Positions 11,131 through 18,035 of a stretch of DNA of 41,821 nucleotides are shown here, piece after piece. This DNA is from Candidatus Obscuribacter phosphatis (GTDB taxonomy: Bacteria; Cyanobacteriota; Vampirovibrionia; Obscuribacterales; Obscuribacteraceae): assembly GCA_001899315.1 (NCBI GenBank), contig MOYA01000003.1:708585-750405 (forward strand), read 5' to 3'. Position 1 is the stretch's first letter. Each line of letters opens with the position of its first letter. The notes below the pieces were generated by a model. The model was not told where the DNA came from and made no database searches. It saw only the letters and a list, made by a program, of their open reading frames with translations. A program made the translations under genes and the position numbers.

Positions 11131-13260
11131 TTACTCTCCACAGACGCGTTTCAGTTCGTCCCCGGTTAGACTCTCTTTCGACAACAAGAGCTTAGCGGCT
11201 TCATCTAACTTGCCCCTTCTGCCTGTAAGAATTTCTAGAGCCTTTGCCTGAGCATCATTTATCAAGTCTCTCACGGCGCAATCAATCTCACGCGCCGTCT
11301 CCTCGCTAAAATGCCTTGAATCTGGATAAGGACTTTGATAGCCATTCAAAATAGTCTGACCATCGCTCTCATAAGTAATCGGTCCCAATTCTTTGACCAT
11401 GCCATAGCGTGTGGCCATGCTGCGGGCCACATCGGTAGCCTTGCTCAAATCATCGGCAGCCCCGGTTGATACGCTATCAAAGACCAGCGATTCTGCCGCC
11501 CTGCCACCCAGCAAGACAGCCAACTTATTCTCAAGTTCTTCTTGCGACATAAGAAAGCGATCTTCCGTAGGGCGCTGCATTGTATAGCCCAGCGCTCCTA
11601 TGCCTCGCGGAATAATGGACACCTTTTGAATTGGATCGGTTCCAGGCAAAGACATAGCCACCAAAGCATGCCCCATCTCGTGGAAAGCGACCCGCTCTCG
11701 CTCGAGTTTGTTGAGCAGGCGGTTCTTCTTCTCAAGACCGGCAACGATGCGCTCGAGAGCCAGAGTGAAGTCTGATCCTTGTACTTTTTCAGCACCGCGC
11801 CTAGTGGCAAGTAATACCGCTTCGTTAATCAAGTTAGCCAGGTCGGCACCGGTGAAACCGGCTGTTGTAGCGGCAATTTCTTCCAAATTAACACTAGCTT
11901 CATCGAGAGACTTGCCTTTCACATGTACTCTCAAAATCTGCTCGCGCCCGATGCGGTCGGGTCGGTCAACCAGCACATGGCGGTCAAAGCGACCGGCGCG
12001 CAAAAGCGCCTGATCTAGTATCTCAGGGCGATTGGTGGCAGCAAGCAAGACCACGCCCTGCCGCGGATCAAAGCCGTCCATTTCCACCAGCAGTTGATTG
12101 AGTGTTTGCTCTTTCTCGTCATGCCCGCCACCCAGACTAGCGACACCACGCGCTCTCCCCAAGGCATCCAGCTCATCAATAAAGATTATGCAAGGCGCAC
12201 TGCGCTGGGCTTGAGCAAACAAATCGCGCACTCTGGCCGCGCCCACGCCAACGAACATCTCAACAAACTCAGAACCACTAATAGAAAAGAAGGGAACGCC
12301 GGCCTCACCCGCCACAGCTCTCGCTAAAAGAGTTTTGCCGGTACCAGGTGGTCCGACCAGCAGAATGCCCTTGGGTAGATGCCCGCCCAATCTGTTGTAA
12401 CGCTCGGGCTCGCGCAAAAAACCAACCACTTCTTGCAACTCTTCTTTGGCTTCATCGACGCCTGCCACATCAGCAAACGTAGTCTTCACCTTACTTTCGA
12501 CATAAACTCTGGCACGGTTCTTCTCTATCGACATAAAGCCAAAGCCGGGCGGACCACCCGAAGACGAGCCATCTTTCGGTCCAAATCGACGCACGATCAT
12601 CGACCACATACCAACAAAAAATACTACCGGCAAAACCCAGCCCAAAAGAGCTTTGCCAAAGGTATCTTCGATTTCGCCCTGAAACTTGATGTGATTGACC
12701 TCAAGCTTGGCGGCAAGTTGAGGGTCGTCGACCCTAATTGTCCTAAACTTGCGAATCTTGACCGCATTCGGCTTACTGCCTGCCTTTGTTTCAACCGGCT
12801 GCAGGTTGGTCTTGTCGGTTGGCTTATTAGAATCTTTACCTGAGTTAGCGGGCATCTTGCCAGACTGCGCTTCCAACAAATTACCGCGAATTTCATGGCT
12901 GCTTACGACAAGGTCATTGACGCAACCTCTCTGCACATAGCCCATAAAGTCGCTGTAGGAAATTGTCTCGGTTTGAGCAGCATTGAAAAAACCAGAGAAG
13001 AGAACAGCCAGCCAGAAAGAGAGAAACAGGTACCAGAGCCAATTATCAAAGCTTGAGAAATTGCCGCCCGGGCCGTCAGCCTGGCGCAAACTGTTGAAGC
13101 CAGAAGACTTTTGCGGGGAAGATTCTTGATTTGATTTTGCTTGTGCAGGCTCTTTTCCAGACTGCGATTCTGAAGGAAGCGACTTCTGCGGTGAAGATTC
13201 GGACAAGATTCCACCTAAATTGAGGGAAACAGCTAGGCTGACCCTGAAATTGTATGTCAT
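11131..13260 (-). CDS. ftsH: FtsH ATP-dependent zinc metalloprotease
   Basis: About 709 residues. Membrane-anchored AAA+ protease that extracts and degrades membrane and unstable cytosolic proteins as a hexamer. Order: a Ser/Gln/Lys-rich extension (about 1-70), membrane span (about 74-93), periplasmic domain, second span (about 205-223), AAA+ module with Walker A GPPGTGKT (about 303-310), pore loop [10 protein letters not shown], Walker [12 protein letters not shown] and the second region of homology [20 protein letters not shown] with both Arg fingers, then the peptidase domain with HEMGH (about 527-531) and the third ligand Asp in ADDLSKATD. All key residues are intact. The about 70-residue N-terminal extension is unusual. 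Start is ATG at 13260 or TTG at 13266; neither has a clear ribosome-binding site. It follows the thioredoxin-like gene by about 32 bases, suggesting cotranscription. Confidence 0.94.
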
Positions 13261-13292
13261 TGACAAGCCGAGACCAAAGCACTAGAGAAAGC

Positions 13293-14612
13293 CTAAATAC
13301 AATTGCTCTGAGCCTTATTCAAGACTAAGCGTACCCCTTGTCCCTTCGCACCCAAATAGATGGCTCGCCTGGCACTGTTAGCCGCTTCGCTTTTCATATT
13401 GAGCTTCAGGCAAGCAAGGGCGCGCATTTCAAAGGGTTGCGCCTGCGGGCGCTGCCGGTTTTCAAAGATGAGCTTTTCAGAAATCTGAAGGGCGAGGCGC
13501 CAATTTTGACCGGAGATTGCCTTAATGTATTCCTGCTTAAGGCTAAGCGGTGCTGCCTTTTCCGTTCTAATCTGGGGCTTGGGCAGAGGGTCATGACTGG
13601 CGGTGAGTTCGCGCAGACTGCGCTTTCTATAGGCATGATCATAGGGATTCTCAGCCAGTTTTCGCTCTTCGCGGTCATAATACTGGCAGCCATAATCGGC
13701 AAACTTTTCTACATTGAAAGACTTGTATGCAACAAAGGGCTGCTCGGCCAGGCGACTATGCATAATTTGGTCGGTAGTCTTGAAAGCTTCGATTGGCACA
13801 CCCTTATGAGGGTCCTGCACAGCCTTTATTGCTTCCTTATCGCTAATACAATCTGCCAGTTCGTGCCGATGTTCGTAGATATGCATAGCATCAAAGCCCT
13901 GTAGCTGACTGCGAGCCCTCAGCTCATCACTGTGAGCCTGGGCATGCTCTTTATGCAGGCGCACAAAGAGTTGTTTCTTGTCAGATAACTTCATAGCCTT
14001 ATCGAGCCAAACGGCGTTGAGACGCTTAGCCAATTCCAGTTCACAGTTTAAGTCATCAGACTGCCAGTAACCCGGTAAGCAATGCAAAACCGTACCATCG
14101 GCACTCAAAATAAACATCTGTACATTATGGGGACCAGCACCATTGGTAGTACCAACGGCAGCACCATCAAGAGGATGCACACCCGAATTGCCGGCATACT
14201 TTTCGTCTTTGATATTGCGATAGCCGACTATAAAGTTACGCTTCAGCTCTGCAATTGTTGATTCTTTAGAAAGCGACACGGCTCTCAGGCTATTGCCGGC
14301 CGATCAAGTAAAGCCGTCGATATTGCCAAGCAAGTGCAGCCAAAAAACCAGCTTTCCCTGGCGCGCCGCCGCTTCACCGGCGGCATCGAGATCGGCATAC
14401 CAGGGAAGAGTAGTGGCCAGTCGCTGGCTTCTAGTCTTGTTTTCAGAGCCAGGCACAACCATTGAAAGCTCTGGACCAGGATCGACTTTGGCATCCTCAG
14501 CCAAGGCCGGTATTGCGCTGGAGGCGAATAGTCCAGCCGCAATCATAAAAGCAAGTGGTCGACTGAAAGACAAGACAAACCGCCACAAATGAGTTACACA
14601 CAAATGAGACAT
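13293..14612 (-). CDS. Thioredoxin-fold protein with in-frame TGA at the active site: candidate selenoprotein or disrupted gene
   Basis: One reading frame, 440 codons, interrupted only by TGA at 14304-14306 (codon 103). Upstream: a signal peptide (hydrophobic core about 20-33, AIPALAED) and TTLPWYADLDAAGEAAARQ then GKLVFWLHLLGNIDGFT, a first thioredoxin strand. Downstream without a break: SAGNSLRAVSLS, ELKRNFIVGYRNI, then GAGPHNVQMFILSADGTVLHCLPGYW, which matches the later strands and GY turn of thioredoxin-like proteins. Aligned to WCxxC, TGA sits at the first Cys and Gly at the second. After TGA, CGGC can pair with GCCG about 20 bases on, but no textbook SECIS loop is seen. The C-terminal part has a TPR-like helical pair (about 375-430). 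The next possible start after TGA is a GTG that is Val in the full frame. ATG at 14612 is likely but lacks a clear ribosome-binding site. Genes with true TGA stops occur nearby (33030, 36703). Confidence 0.6.
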
Positions 14613-15190: not shown

Positions 15191-15364
15191 ATATTTAGAT
15201 TTCGAGAAGGGCGCTTCGCGCCATATTTATTTAGATTGAGAAGGGCGCTTCGCACCATATTTATTTAGATTGAGAAGGGCGCTTCGCGCCATATTTATTT
15301 AGATTGAGAAGGGCGCTTCGCGCCATATTTATTTAGATTGAGAAGGGCGCTTCGCGCCCTTCTC
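15191..15364. repeat. 34-base tandem repeat with GC-rich hairpins
   Basis: Five units of 34 bases. Each carries GAGAAGGGCGCTTCGCGCC and an AT-rich spacer ATATTTATTTAGATT; the first unit is diverged and one unit has a single change (CGCACC). GAGAAGG begins at 15204, 15238, 15272, 15306 and 15340. Every unit can fold GGCGC-GAA-GCGCC on the leftward strand. The last unit is extended to a perfect 11-bp stem (15340-15364), which would be the first hairpin met by transcripts leaving the FtsH-like gene 50 bases upstream. Confidence 0.92.
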
Positions 15365-15415: not shown

Positions 15416-17512
15416 TTATGAAGCTGAAACTTGGTGATTCTCGTCCCAGTTATAAACGAAGGCAAAGGACCGGGAAAGGTCCTTGCCTTTGTGGAAGTAG
15501 TCCCAGTGCTCTTTGATCTCAGCAAAGCGCATGCGCTCTTTCTGAATCAAAACAGGCACGAAATACTCCACCCACTCCCGCTCCTCTTTCAGATAGGCAC
15601 GAGCCTCCGCCTCCGCTTCCTCAAGATAAACCTTGATCAGTTCATCCACCTGGCTGGCGGAATAGTCGGACATGCCGTACTGCGGAGCCTCGGTCATGGC
15701 ACCGCCAAGATAGCGCGAGCCACCCTGCTGCTTGACCGAAATCGCCGGCAGCTTAATTAGCCTTTCCTCTTTGCGGAAGTTATGATAGCCGGACATATTG
15801 ATCTGCATGAGCATCACCTTGATGATGCGATTAGCCATCTCCACGTCATTCTGACAGCCACCGGTGGTCTCGCCGAGGAAGAGCGCTTCAGCGACATTAC
15901 CAGCCATAGCCACCGCCAGACGCGACTTGAGATTGCGCGCAGTGGGCATTTCATGACGCGGATTAGTGCGCACAAAGCCACCGGTGCCATTCGGTCCCAG
16001 TATGCTGATATCGGTAATCTCGTCACCATACTGCCCGTCCCAGCGGCCGGTGTTCTGCAACAGTTTACGCATGGCCACAGTCAGATGGCCGGTTTCGTGA
16101 TAGGCGATCATTCTTTTCAGTTGGGGCTCGAGGCGTCTGCCCTTGGTCTCATTGATATTGCCCAAGACCATCTCCATAAGCGACACCCAAAGGTCGTCCA
16201 TGGTGATTTTCACCGCCCCCGCCTGAAAATGATCCGCGACTCGGAATCCTTTTTCAGAAAAGAGCAGGGCAGGCGAGACGCCGCGCAGAAGACGGCGCTT
16301 AGCCTGAGCCGGAGCCCGTTTGCGCACCAGAGTATCGATATCGGCGCCGGTCATGCCGGTCATCTCGTTAGCGATCTTATCGAGGTCGACATCGTCTGCG
16401 ATTGGCATGTTCTCGAGTTTCACTCTCAAGATAGCCAGACGTCCGTCCTTGTCGGGTTTAGAGATCTCGATCACCAGATCGCCCAGACGACCAGAGCGAG
16501 TCACAGCAGCGTCGAGCGCCTCAGGTTGATTGGTGGCAGCGATGAAAAGAATGCGCTCATTCAAATCACCGGCACCGTTCAGTTCGACAAGCAACTGGTC
16601 GACAGTCTGCTTGTGCTCTTTGTTATCACCTTCGGCGCGGTTCTGACCGATTGAAGTGAACTCATCGATAAAGATAATCACCCACGAGTTCAACTCATCG
16701 CGCAAACGCCGAGCCTGGGCAAAGGCATCGCGAATGCGGGCAGCGCCCACACCGACATACATTTCCACAAAGTCTGAGCCGGCACCGGACAGAACCGGAA
16801 TGCCGGTCTCGCCGGCGATAGCCTGCACGATATAAGTCTTGCCCACCCCAGGAGGACCCTTGAGCAGGACAGCGCGCGGAATCTGACCATTGAGACTGGT
16901 GAGCAACTCGGGATGCTTGAGGTCAAAGATGAGTTCCTCTAAAGTGCGCTTCTCGTCATCGATGCCCGCTACATCTTTGAGCGAGACTTTCTTGGAGACC
17001 AGATCAAGACGGGTAAGTTTGGCGTTCTTGTCCTTTGAGCCATTCTGCGAGGCGGCTGACATCTTAGAGAACATGAGCCAACCAACCAGCATGAAGAGCA
17101 GCCACGGCACTATAGTGATAGCCAGTTGCAAGACCAGCGATGTCTTCTGAGAAGGCTCGACCACCTGGCTGTTGATGGCGATTTTTGCACTATCGGCAGT
17201 GGCACTAATGCGACGATATTCTTCTTCGCCGGCAAGTGGACTCCAGATATTCTCTTCTCCATTGCTGTCGAGCAGCACCTTACCAGGGAAAGCCTCACCT
17301 TTAACTCGCACAAAGGTGATGGTTTTGACCGTAGCCGGATTCTCGCGAATCACTTGCTGAACTCGCGAGAGATCTTTCTGCGAGTGAAACTTGAGCAGGT
17401 TGTCTCCATCATCGTCATGGGGCCAAACAAAAGCCACTGCGCCCATGATCACAAAGGCGAAAGCCGCATAGAGAAACCAGTTCATTGTTGCTTTAGGAAG
17501 TTTCGGAAACAT
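15416..17512 (-). CDS. Divergent FtsH-like AAA+ protease
   Basis: About 698 residues. Two membrane spans (about 10-30 and 125-150) flank a periplasmic domain. The AAA+ module has Walker A GPPGVGKT, pore loop FVEMYVGVGA and Walker B IIFIDEFTSIG. The second region of homology reads ATNQPEALDAAVTRSGRLGD where FtsH has RPGRFDR, so one of two Arg-finger positions is Asp. The peptidase site HETGH and the later NDVEMANRI Asp are kept. A long C-terminal tail (about 600-698) is Glu-rich and helical. ATG at 17512 has AGGA eight bases upstream and overlaps the preceding membrane-protein gene by 20 bases, implying coupled translation. It is much more diverged than ftsH at 11131 and GC-richer than its surroundings, so it is probably a specialised paralogue. 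Confidence 0.85.
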   Translation of the reverse strand: MFPKLPKATMNWFLYAAFAFVIMGAVAFVWPHDDDGDNLLKFHSQKDLSRVQQVIRENPATVKTITFVRVKGEAFPGKVLLDSNGEENIWSPLAGEEEYRRISATADSAKIAINSQVVEPSQKTSLVLQLAITIVPWLLFMLVGWLMFSKMSAASQNGSKDKNAKLTRLDLVSKKVSLKDVAGIDDEKRTLEELIFDLKHPELLTSLNGQIPRAVLLKGPPGVGKTYIVQAIAGETGIPVLSGAGSDFVEMYVGVGAARIRDAFAQARRLRDELNSWVIIFIDEFTSIGQNRAEGDNKEHKQTVDQLLVELNGAGDLNERILFIAATNQPEALDAAVTRSGRLGDLVIEISKPDKDGRLAILRVKLENMPIADDVDLDKIANEMTGMTGADIDTLVRKRAPAQAKRRLLRGVSPALLFSEKGFRVADHFQAGAVKITMDDLWVSLMEMVLGNINETKGRRLEPQLKRMIAYHETGHLTVAMRKLLQNTGRWDGQYGDEITDISILGPNGTGGFVRTNPRHEMPTARNLKSRLAVAMAGNVAEALFLGETTGGCQNDVEMANRIIKVMLMQINMSGYHNFRKEERLIKLPAISVKQQGGSRYLGGAMTEAPQYGMSDYSASQVDELIKVYLEEAEAEARAYLKEEREWVEYFVPVLIQKERMRFAEIKEHWDYFHKGKDLSRSFAFVYNWDENHQVSAS

Positions 17513-18035
17513 TTTCATTTTCCTTCTTTTGCACACCGGCTTTCCATCTTTCTATTTTTTGGAAGAAACCGGCAAAGAGATAGCCCAGCGTCAGGCCGGA
17601 CAGGTGAGCTACCAGGGTGGGAGAACCCATTTTGAAGATTACCTGGTAGGCGAACAAGGCTAGAGCGATATAGCGCAAGCCTTGTCCAAAAGTACTAGGG
17701 GGCGCACTGGCGCCGCTAGCTCTTTCAAGCAAGAGAGCGGCCAATTGTATGGTCTCTCTCAAGTAGAGATAGGCTTGCGCCAATGCCCATGAGTGCTCAC
17801 AAAAATCGCGCCGCTGATTAACTCGCGCACCAGCACGCAGCCCAGCATAAAAGCAAACTGCCGACCAGCTATATAGCAAAAAGGCGGCAGTTAATTGAAT
17901 CAGACGATTCAACCAGTAGGGCAGGTTGAACAGATCAAGGCCAAGGTCAAAATAAACCAGCAGTAACTGCCAGATAATTCCAACCACAATGAGTGCTAGC
18001 GCCGCTCGCGGCAGACCTTCATCTTGAGAAGCAAT
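17493..18035 (-). CDS. Polytopic membrane protein, rhomboid-like C-terminus, possible ATT start
   Basis: About 180 residues with four hydrophobic segments. Near the C-terminus SPTLVAHLSGLTLGYLFAGFF resembles the last rhomboid helix (HLGGLxxGxxxG), including the His, but no GxSG catalytic serine is visible, so it may be an inactive rhomboid relative. The start is unclear. GTG at 17987 has no ribosome-binding site. The frame is open upstream, and an ideal AAGGAG (18044-18049) lies eight bases before an ATT at 18035; an ATG closer to that site is in another frame and gives only 14 codons. The gene overlaps the FtsH-like gene by 20 bases, so the product may be a partner or adaptor of that protease. 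Confidence 0.55.
   Translation of the reverse strand: MASQDEGLPRAALALIVVGIIWQLLLVYFDLGLDLFNLPYWLNRLIQLTAAFLLYSWSAVCFYAGLRAGARVNQRRDFCEHSWALAQAYLYLRETIQLAALLLERASGASAPPSTFGQGLRYIALALFAYQVIFKMGSPTLVAHLSGLTLGYLFAGFFQKIERWKAGVQKKENENVSETS

Follow-up and report, generated by a model that had tools for sequence, protein, structure and literature searches.

An in-frame UGA codon in a thioredoxin-fold gene of Candidatus Obscuribacter phosphatis points to an apparently new selenoprotein family in Obscuribacterales

Selenocysteine (Sec) is the rare 21st amino acid, and thioredoxin-fold selenoproteins with a bacterial SECIS element are a known kind. A 2026 review tabulates 119 prokaryotic selenoprotein families or subfamilies and, in its accessible part, models the bacterial SECIS element as a hairpin with a loop of 3-9 nt, a stem of 4-16 bp, a G in the first two loop positions, and 16-37 nt between UGA and loop (PMC13188914). 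Two described families are closest to the locus reported here. The VPGUxxT proteins (NF041382 and NF041383; OS_HP5) are also thioredoxin-like and use Sec as an alternative to Cys. The Trx7/PDZ family (NF041199) shares a Thioredoxin_7-like region and is listed with the motif CxxU in the accessible part of the same catalogue (PMC13188914). For the host phylum, the available text of a 2022 review describes Cyanobacteria as apparently without Sec (PMC9312934), and that of a 2016 study reports selD alone in three Prochlorococcus (PMC5029168). Our literature search, with supplements and most subscription papers outside its reach, found nothing on selenoproteins or selenocysteine in Obscuribacter, Obscuribacterales, Vampirovibrionia, or non-photosynthetic cyanobacteria. 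Combining selenocysteine or selenoprotein with Melainabacteria as search terms found only work on selenium nutrition, as judged by titles.

We analyzed a window of 41,821 nucleotides from Candidatus Obscuribacter phosphatis (contig MOYA01000003.1, positions 708,585 to 750,405), whose genome assembly comprises 5.49 Mb in 8 contigs and is 95% complete. On the minus strand of this window, a gene extends from a putative ATG start at 14612 to TAG at 13293 (13293-14612). It contains 439 codons plus the stop when its in-frame TGA (14304-14306, minus strand) is counted as Sec, at residue 120 of P0001 and residue 65 of the predicted mature protein. From routine annotation one would expect a gene that ends at this TGA or begins downstream of it. 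An initial annotation had described the frame as open on both sides of the codon, and this was borne out. If TGA is read as one residue, no other stop occurs before TAG 13293, and the same frame is present in a sister genome, with the same TGA, 92% protein identity, and zero gaps over 1294 aligned bases. Third codon positions accounted for 21 of the 34 base differences from the sister gene before TGA and for 100 of the 129 after it. Relative to the sister genome, dN and dS were 0.067 and 0.374, respectively, before TGA and 0.035 and 0.718 after it. The low dN/dS (∼0.05) and the third-position bias after TGA therefore indicated that this stretch is constrained as protein. Judged from its sequence, the gene very probably encodes an exported thioredoxin-fold selenoprotein, with Sec inserted at TGA 14306-14304.

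Homologues were then compared at this codon. Family matches occurred in 41 of the 53 genomes of the order. Among the 107 matches listed, 92 scored above 50 bits, and exactly one TGA was present in 91 of them; only three of these carried an additional TAA or TAG. The 15 weaker matches (50 bits or less) had one TGA in 11 cases and none in four. Within the fetched loci, where the position of TGA was read (L020-L069 and, with the profile, L020-L156), the codon sits in a T-U-S-A-[GA] motif. U occupied the motif column in 103 of 139 profile-aligned rows, or 101 without L059 and L069; many of these rows repeat a gene that was reached by another route as well, which leaves 69 distinct family-1 genes. 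Named genomes were scanned with a pair of peptide patterns, one designed for the Cys codon form, and the scan reports only loci that were confirmed. L051, a congeneric locus and the sole TGA-less match above 50 bits, has Cys in the position of U and reads TCAAASALRAVSLS. As in bacterial selenoproteins, the in-frame UGA stands where homologues have UGA or Cys. Two loci labeled Planctomycetota, L093 and L117, also kept U and the hairpin described below. Their G+C contents were 0.693 and 0.678, respectively, against a median of 0.50 for 61 loci. The L093 genome has a full selA, and in the L117 genome a selA fragment that covers 112 profile positions and scores below cut-off lies at a contig start.

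The order also contains a sister family with an adjacent Cys-Sec pair (FCUTNA), represented by L053, L054, L056, L057, L058, L060, and L067, most members of which read FCUTNARLARTVLFS. The two families aligned with an hhalign probability of 98.4 (E 1.1e-14). The sister family shares the hairpin and its distance from UGA, with one G-C pair replaced by A-U. As far as sequence can tell, TUSA[GA] is a multi-copy family of Obscuribacterales, accompanied by this sister family with its FCUTNA Cys-Sec pair. Two further thioredoxin-like frames with an in-frame TGA, L059 (TUGNGH) and L069 (DCUIGGRMARGSS), are possibly members of more selenoprotein families.

The initial annotation had seen no textbook SECIS after the codon. 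A SECIS-like hairpin is nevertheless present at 14269-14286 on the minus strand, with a 5' stem GAGAGC (14286-14281), a loop CGUGUC (14280-14275), and a 3' stem GCUUUC (14274-14269). UGA is separated by 23 nt from the apical loop, which reads CG[U/G]G in homologues. This spacing, the 6-nt loop, and the 6-bp stem agree with the SECIS geometry in the accessible part of the 2026 review (PMC13188914). The same part quotes an energy limit of -7.5 kcal/mol (PMC13188914), compared with -6.7 kcal/mol for the window hairpin alone and -11.0 kcal/mol for the isolated 45-nt RNA, which prefers another fold (shuffle z -0.35). When the first 12-15 nt were omitted, as under the ribosome, the hairpin was the best fold of the window RNA. 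The hairpin is not the minimum free energy (MFE) fold of the isolated 45-mer and becomes clear only from homologues, and the isolated MFE fold was discarded as a SECIS test. The Rfam model SECIS_1 gave no match here and likewise none in any of 14 control genomes, so its silence was not used as evidence.

For the hairpin alignment, we used 70 distinct 45-nt stretches starting at UGA (of 73), excluding L051 because of its Cys and L059 and L069 because of their different spacing. Columns 21-26 pair with columns 33-38, and loop positions C27, G28, and G30 are invariant across the 70 stretches. The stem was paired in 95.2% of 420 cells, compared with 92.9% in shuffled alignments (0 of 500 shuffles as high), and sliding it by 1-3 columns left 35-66% paired (at most 65.7%). 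The covariation score was 0.156 against 0.126 for shuffled alignments, again with 0 of 500 as high. Double changes occurred in one of the six stem pairs, in 7 rows that all belong to the sister family; this number of doubly changed pairs was equaled in 291 of 500 shuffles, and slid versions also have 1-2. The count of further pair types was matched by all 500 shuffles. The RNAalifold consensus retained four of six pairs at an energy of only -1.95 kcal/mol. Taken alone, the covariation of the hairpin was modest.

Codon constraint gave stronger evidence for the hairpin than covariation did. Among the 105 scored columns, which span the profile-covered part of the gene, U+7, U+9, U+10, and U+11 were the four most constrained and U+8 was sixth. 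Codons U+7 to U+11 are the ones from which the hairpin and its loop are built. Arg at U+7 was encoded by AGR in 68 of 69 cases, whereas AGR accounts for 21% of the Arg codons in the rest of these genes. U+8 was GCC in 66 of 66 and U+9 was GTG in 61 of 61, with TCG at U+10 in 60 of 67 and CTC or CTT at U+11 in 68 of 69. L051, the homologue with Cys, no longer has the CGUG loop. In the host genome, a covariance model built on the hairpin stretch (R1) had two clear matches, the selenoprotein gene (64 bits) and a paralogue (56.8 bits). Four further R1 matches with E of 0.14-0.34 were set aside as chance, and their frames show no family motif.

These data also bear on whether the gene is a pseudogene, in which a TGC/TGT-to-TGA mutation inactivated a formerly functional Cys gene. 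Seen in one genome, a lone stop at a Cys site would look no different, and a Cys homologue, L051, does exist in the same genus. Across the order, however, TGA is retained in nearly every strong match, and it holds the same place in the motif in the loci read, including those labeled Planctomycetota. This explanation fails because dN/dS after TGA is low, as expected under purifying selection, and the hairpin is conserved, down to its specific codon constraint. We regard it as having practically no chance of being correct.

The components for Sec insertion were found in the host genome, where their presence had been proposed as a check. SelA (502 bits) and SelD (349 bits) exceeded their NCBIfam cut-offs, SelB (256.6 bits) exceeded its cut-off of 242.25 by a small margin, and tRNA-Sec reached 74 bits against the Rfam cut-off of 47. 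The SelB candidate contains the SelB winged-helix Pfam domain, and its SelB beta-barrel domain falls short of the cut-off. ARAGORN assigned the anticodon UCA to tRNA-Sec. All four components associated with a bacterial selenoprotein, SelA, SelB, SelD, and tRNA-Sec, are thus encoded. Neither the formate dehydrogenase alpha model nor NF041383 had a match over cut-off in the host genome. With sel genes present, TGA or Cys conserved in homologues, and additional stops rare among them, the suggestion of a possible new selenoprotein in the initial annotation was supported. SelB carrying Sec-tRNA-Sec(UCA) would bind the hairpin just 3' of UGA and insert Sec, as the genome and the sequence suggest, and such insertion would let the 439-codon frame give one protein.

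Across the order, selA was over cut-off in 38 of 53 genomes. The family and selA occurred together in 33 of the 53, the family only in 8, selA only in 5, and neither in 7 (Fisher p 0.024), a weak association. Restricting the count to the 37 genomes at least 85% complete gave 28 with both, 0 with the family only, 3 with selA only, and 6 with neither (Fisher p 3.6e-5); both tests count genomes as independent and ignore kinship. The 8 genomes with the family and without selA are just 64-84% complete, so the absence of selA may reflect a missing contig. Five genomes (G015, G022, G050, G051, and G052) have selA over cut-off and no match to the TUSA[GA] family.

Any form of read-through would account for the open frame, including the reading of TGA as an amino acid other than Sec through genome-wide reassignment or a suppressor. 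TGA terminates 6 of the 26 window ORFs taken, a weak argument against reassignment since the ORFs were called with TGA as a stop. The Sec machinery and the hairpin are both present, and where the homologue differs at this codon, it has Cys. A reading as another amino acid is very improbable on these grounds, and Sec insertion remains the preferred reading.

The protein sequence continued coherently through the codon, as had been suggested initially, with a signal-peptide-like start and the first thioredoxin strand before TGA and a helix and the later thioredoxin strands after it. The signal-peptide-like N-terminus (14499-14612, minus strand), judged from the sequence by eye, contains a hydrophobic segment whose last residues are ALA. 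For the predicted mature protein (401 residues), the model had a pLDDT of 87.4 and placed Sec65 directly before helix 66-75. Structure searching with this full model was swamped by TPR matches, and the thioredoxin domain was therefore folded alone (pLDDT 95.4, pTM 0.92). In the model, the thioredoxin-fold domain with a helical extension occupies 13674-14465 (minus strand), and TPR-like C-terminal helices lie at 13296-13547 (minus strand), from about mature residue 318.

The best solved structural matches of the thioredoxin-domain model were thioredoxin folds: 3f9u (Z 11.6, rmsd 2.3 over 109), 2lst (Z 10.8, rmsd 3.9 over 119), and 3ira (Z 9.6, rmsd 3.5 over 132). Foldseek with the same model returned no match passing E 0.001, and PDB sequences gave none against profile A2 at E up to 10. 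Among described proteins, the fold resembles the DsbD gamma domain (2fwf; Z 9.2, rmsd 2.9 over 104), DsbH (2ju5; Z 8.7, rmsd 3.7 over 106), and AGR2/AGR3 (AGR3, 3ph9; Z 9.3, rmsd 3.3 over 115), at 9-15% identity in these comparisons. Unlike these proteins, the window protein has a single Sec without CxxC, a helical extension, and a TPR tail.

In the predicted model, the helix that follows the first core strand carries the redox residue at its N-end, as in thioredoxin folds, which would put Sec in the place of the first Cys of thioredoxin CxxC, where the active-site helix begins. The initial annotation had likewise placed TGA at that Cys with Gly as the second, and the motif is indeed U-S-A-G. 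The CxxC (or UxxC/CxxU) pair of classical members is absent, and the conserved Cys lies elsewhere. This residue, the Cys of DGTVLHCLPGYW (mature residue 140; 14079-14081, minus strand), sits in the strand before PGYW and is shared by L051, the Cys homologue, and 67 of the 69 distinct family-1 proteins. The sister family has Val or Ile at this position and its own Cys beside Sec. Cys140 is a candidate resolving thiol in the TUSA[GA] family: with no second Cys in the motif, the Cys of the fourth core strand (HCLPGYW) would be the likeliest selenylsulfide partner. The TPR tail may serve in partner binding. Given its fold, Sec, and export signal, the protein probably functions as a selenol oxidoreductase or peroxidase exported to act outside the cytoplasm.

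The same data speak to a split of the locus into a short protein ending at TGA and a 328-residue protein starting from GTG 14279. An ORF from that GTG does exist. The predicted thioredoxin fold, however, would need both strand 50-56 and helix 66-75, which lie on either side of the codon, and the stretch separating UGA from GTG ranks among the best conserved in the family. Two separate proteins are therefore extremely improbable, and a single read-through selenoprotein is favored.

Relatives of the domain also occur elsewhere in the phylum. Profile A2 matched 25 of 386 genomes sampled evenly across it, 24 of them outside the host genome. These 24 relatives, presumably oxygenic cyanobacteria, have no in-frame stop, and every one carries a Cys followed by Arg at +7, as Sec is. 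The automatic alignment set this Cys directly against Sec in 5 of the 24 relatives and shifted it by one residue in the other 19; an offset of one residue was also seen in the sister family, so the equivalence of Cys and Sec in the phylum relatives rests on spacing. The thiol relatives of the same phylum (L132-L155) have domain homology at 27-42 bits. Unlike the Sec family, they show no in-frame stop and, in rows covering the column, no equivalent of C140.

Comparison with known families left the window protein apart. The full-length read-through product had no match in Pfam or NCBIfam at E up to 1, and members of the alignment gave scattered weak matches only. The sister family and more distant loci had sub-cut-off matches to Thioredoxin_7, DsbH, and VPGUxxT models. 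For Pfam Thioredoxin_7/Thioredox_DsbH (gathering cut-off 27 bits), relatives reached 15-22 bits and the window protein did not match. SenA matched 4 of 28 members (best E 8.1e-4), in one member over residues 244-274 with 15.5 bits against 420, and was rejected as chance.

The locus could still be a real selenoprotein of a family already described under another name, such as Trx7/PDZ (NF041199), VPGUxxT (NF041382/NF041383), or another. Relatives do show weak NCBIfam similarity to both, and some rows of the catalogue give no motif by which to exclude them, in the accessible part of its table (PMC13188914). The scores, however, stay at or below about 20 bits against cut-offs of 275-350. VPGUxxT matched 1 of 28 family members and, at E 4.6e-4, a sister-family member, and its motif VPGUxxT differs from GxTUSAG here. 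Against NF041383 (cut-off 275 bits), the window protein had no match and the relatives scanned reached at most 18 bits. Trx7/PDZ weakly matched 1 of 28 members, with L069 and L132 at 12-15 bits against a cut-off of 300 and no match for the window protein, which has U-S-A-G instead of CxxU and is further set apart by the TPR tail of its model. No row in the accessible part of the table is recognizable as the TUSA[GA] family, and UxxG, which USAG would fit, is given there only for rhodanese-like and (arsenite) methyltransferase families, none of them thioredoxin-like (PMC13188914). An earlier description under another name is thus unlikely. The TUSA[GA] family, which has no Pfam or NCBIfam model, and Sec use in Obscuribacterales are apparently new, as far as the literature could be searched.

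We lean toward a broader interpretation, in which multi-copy exported thioredoxin-fold selenoenzymes, together with the Cys-Sec sister family that shares their hairpin and its distance from UGA, underlie Sec use in Obscuribacterales, and oxygenic relatives keep the Cys form. Sec would then be in use in a bacterial group thought to do without it, and Sec/Cys exchange in one enzyme would be traceable within a single phylum reported to lack Sec. The Cys copy inside the family that has lost the hairpin loop, along with the Cys relatives elsewhere in the phylum, would make this a tractable case of such exchange.

The surroundings of the gene contain further features. Two FtsH-like genes (AAA + peptidase M41) flank it on the same strand (11131-13266 and 15416-17536, minus). 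A functional tie to them was rejected: in a comparison of L070-L130, L050, and L051, with L020 as the own locus, both were kept only at the sister locus L070, and L115 had one weak AAA match beside the selenoprotein gene. Upstream of the selenoprotein gene, at 15192-15358 of the window, a 34-bp unit that includes GGGCGCTTCGCGCC is present as a tandem array of 4.9 copies.
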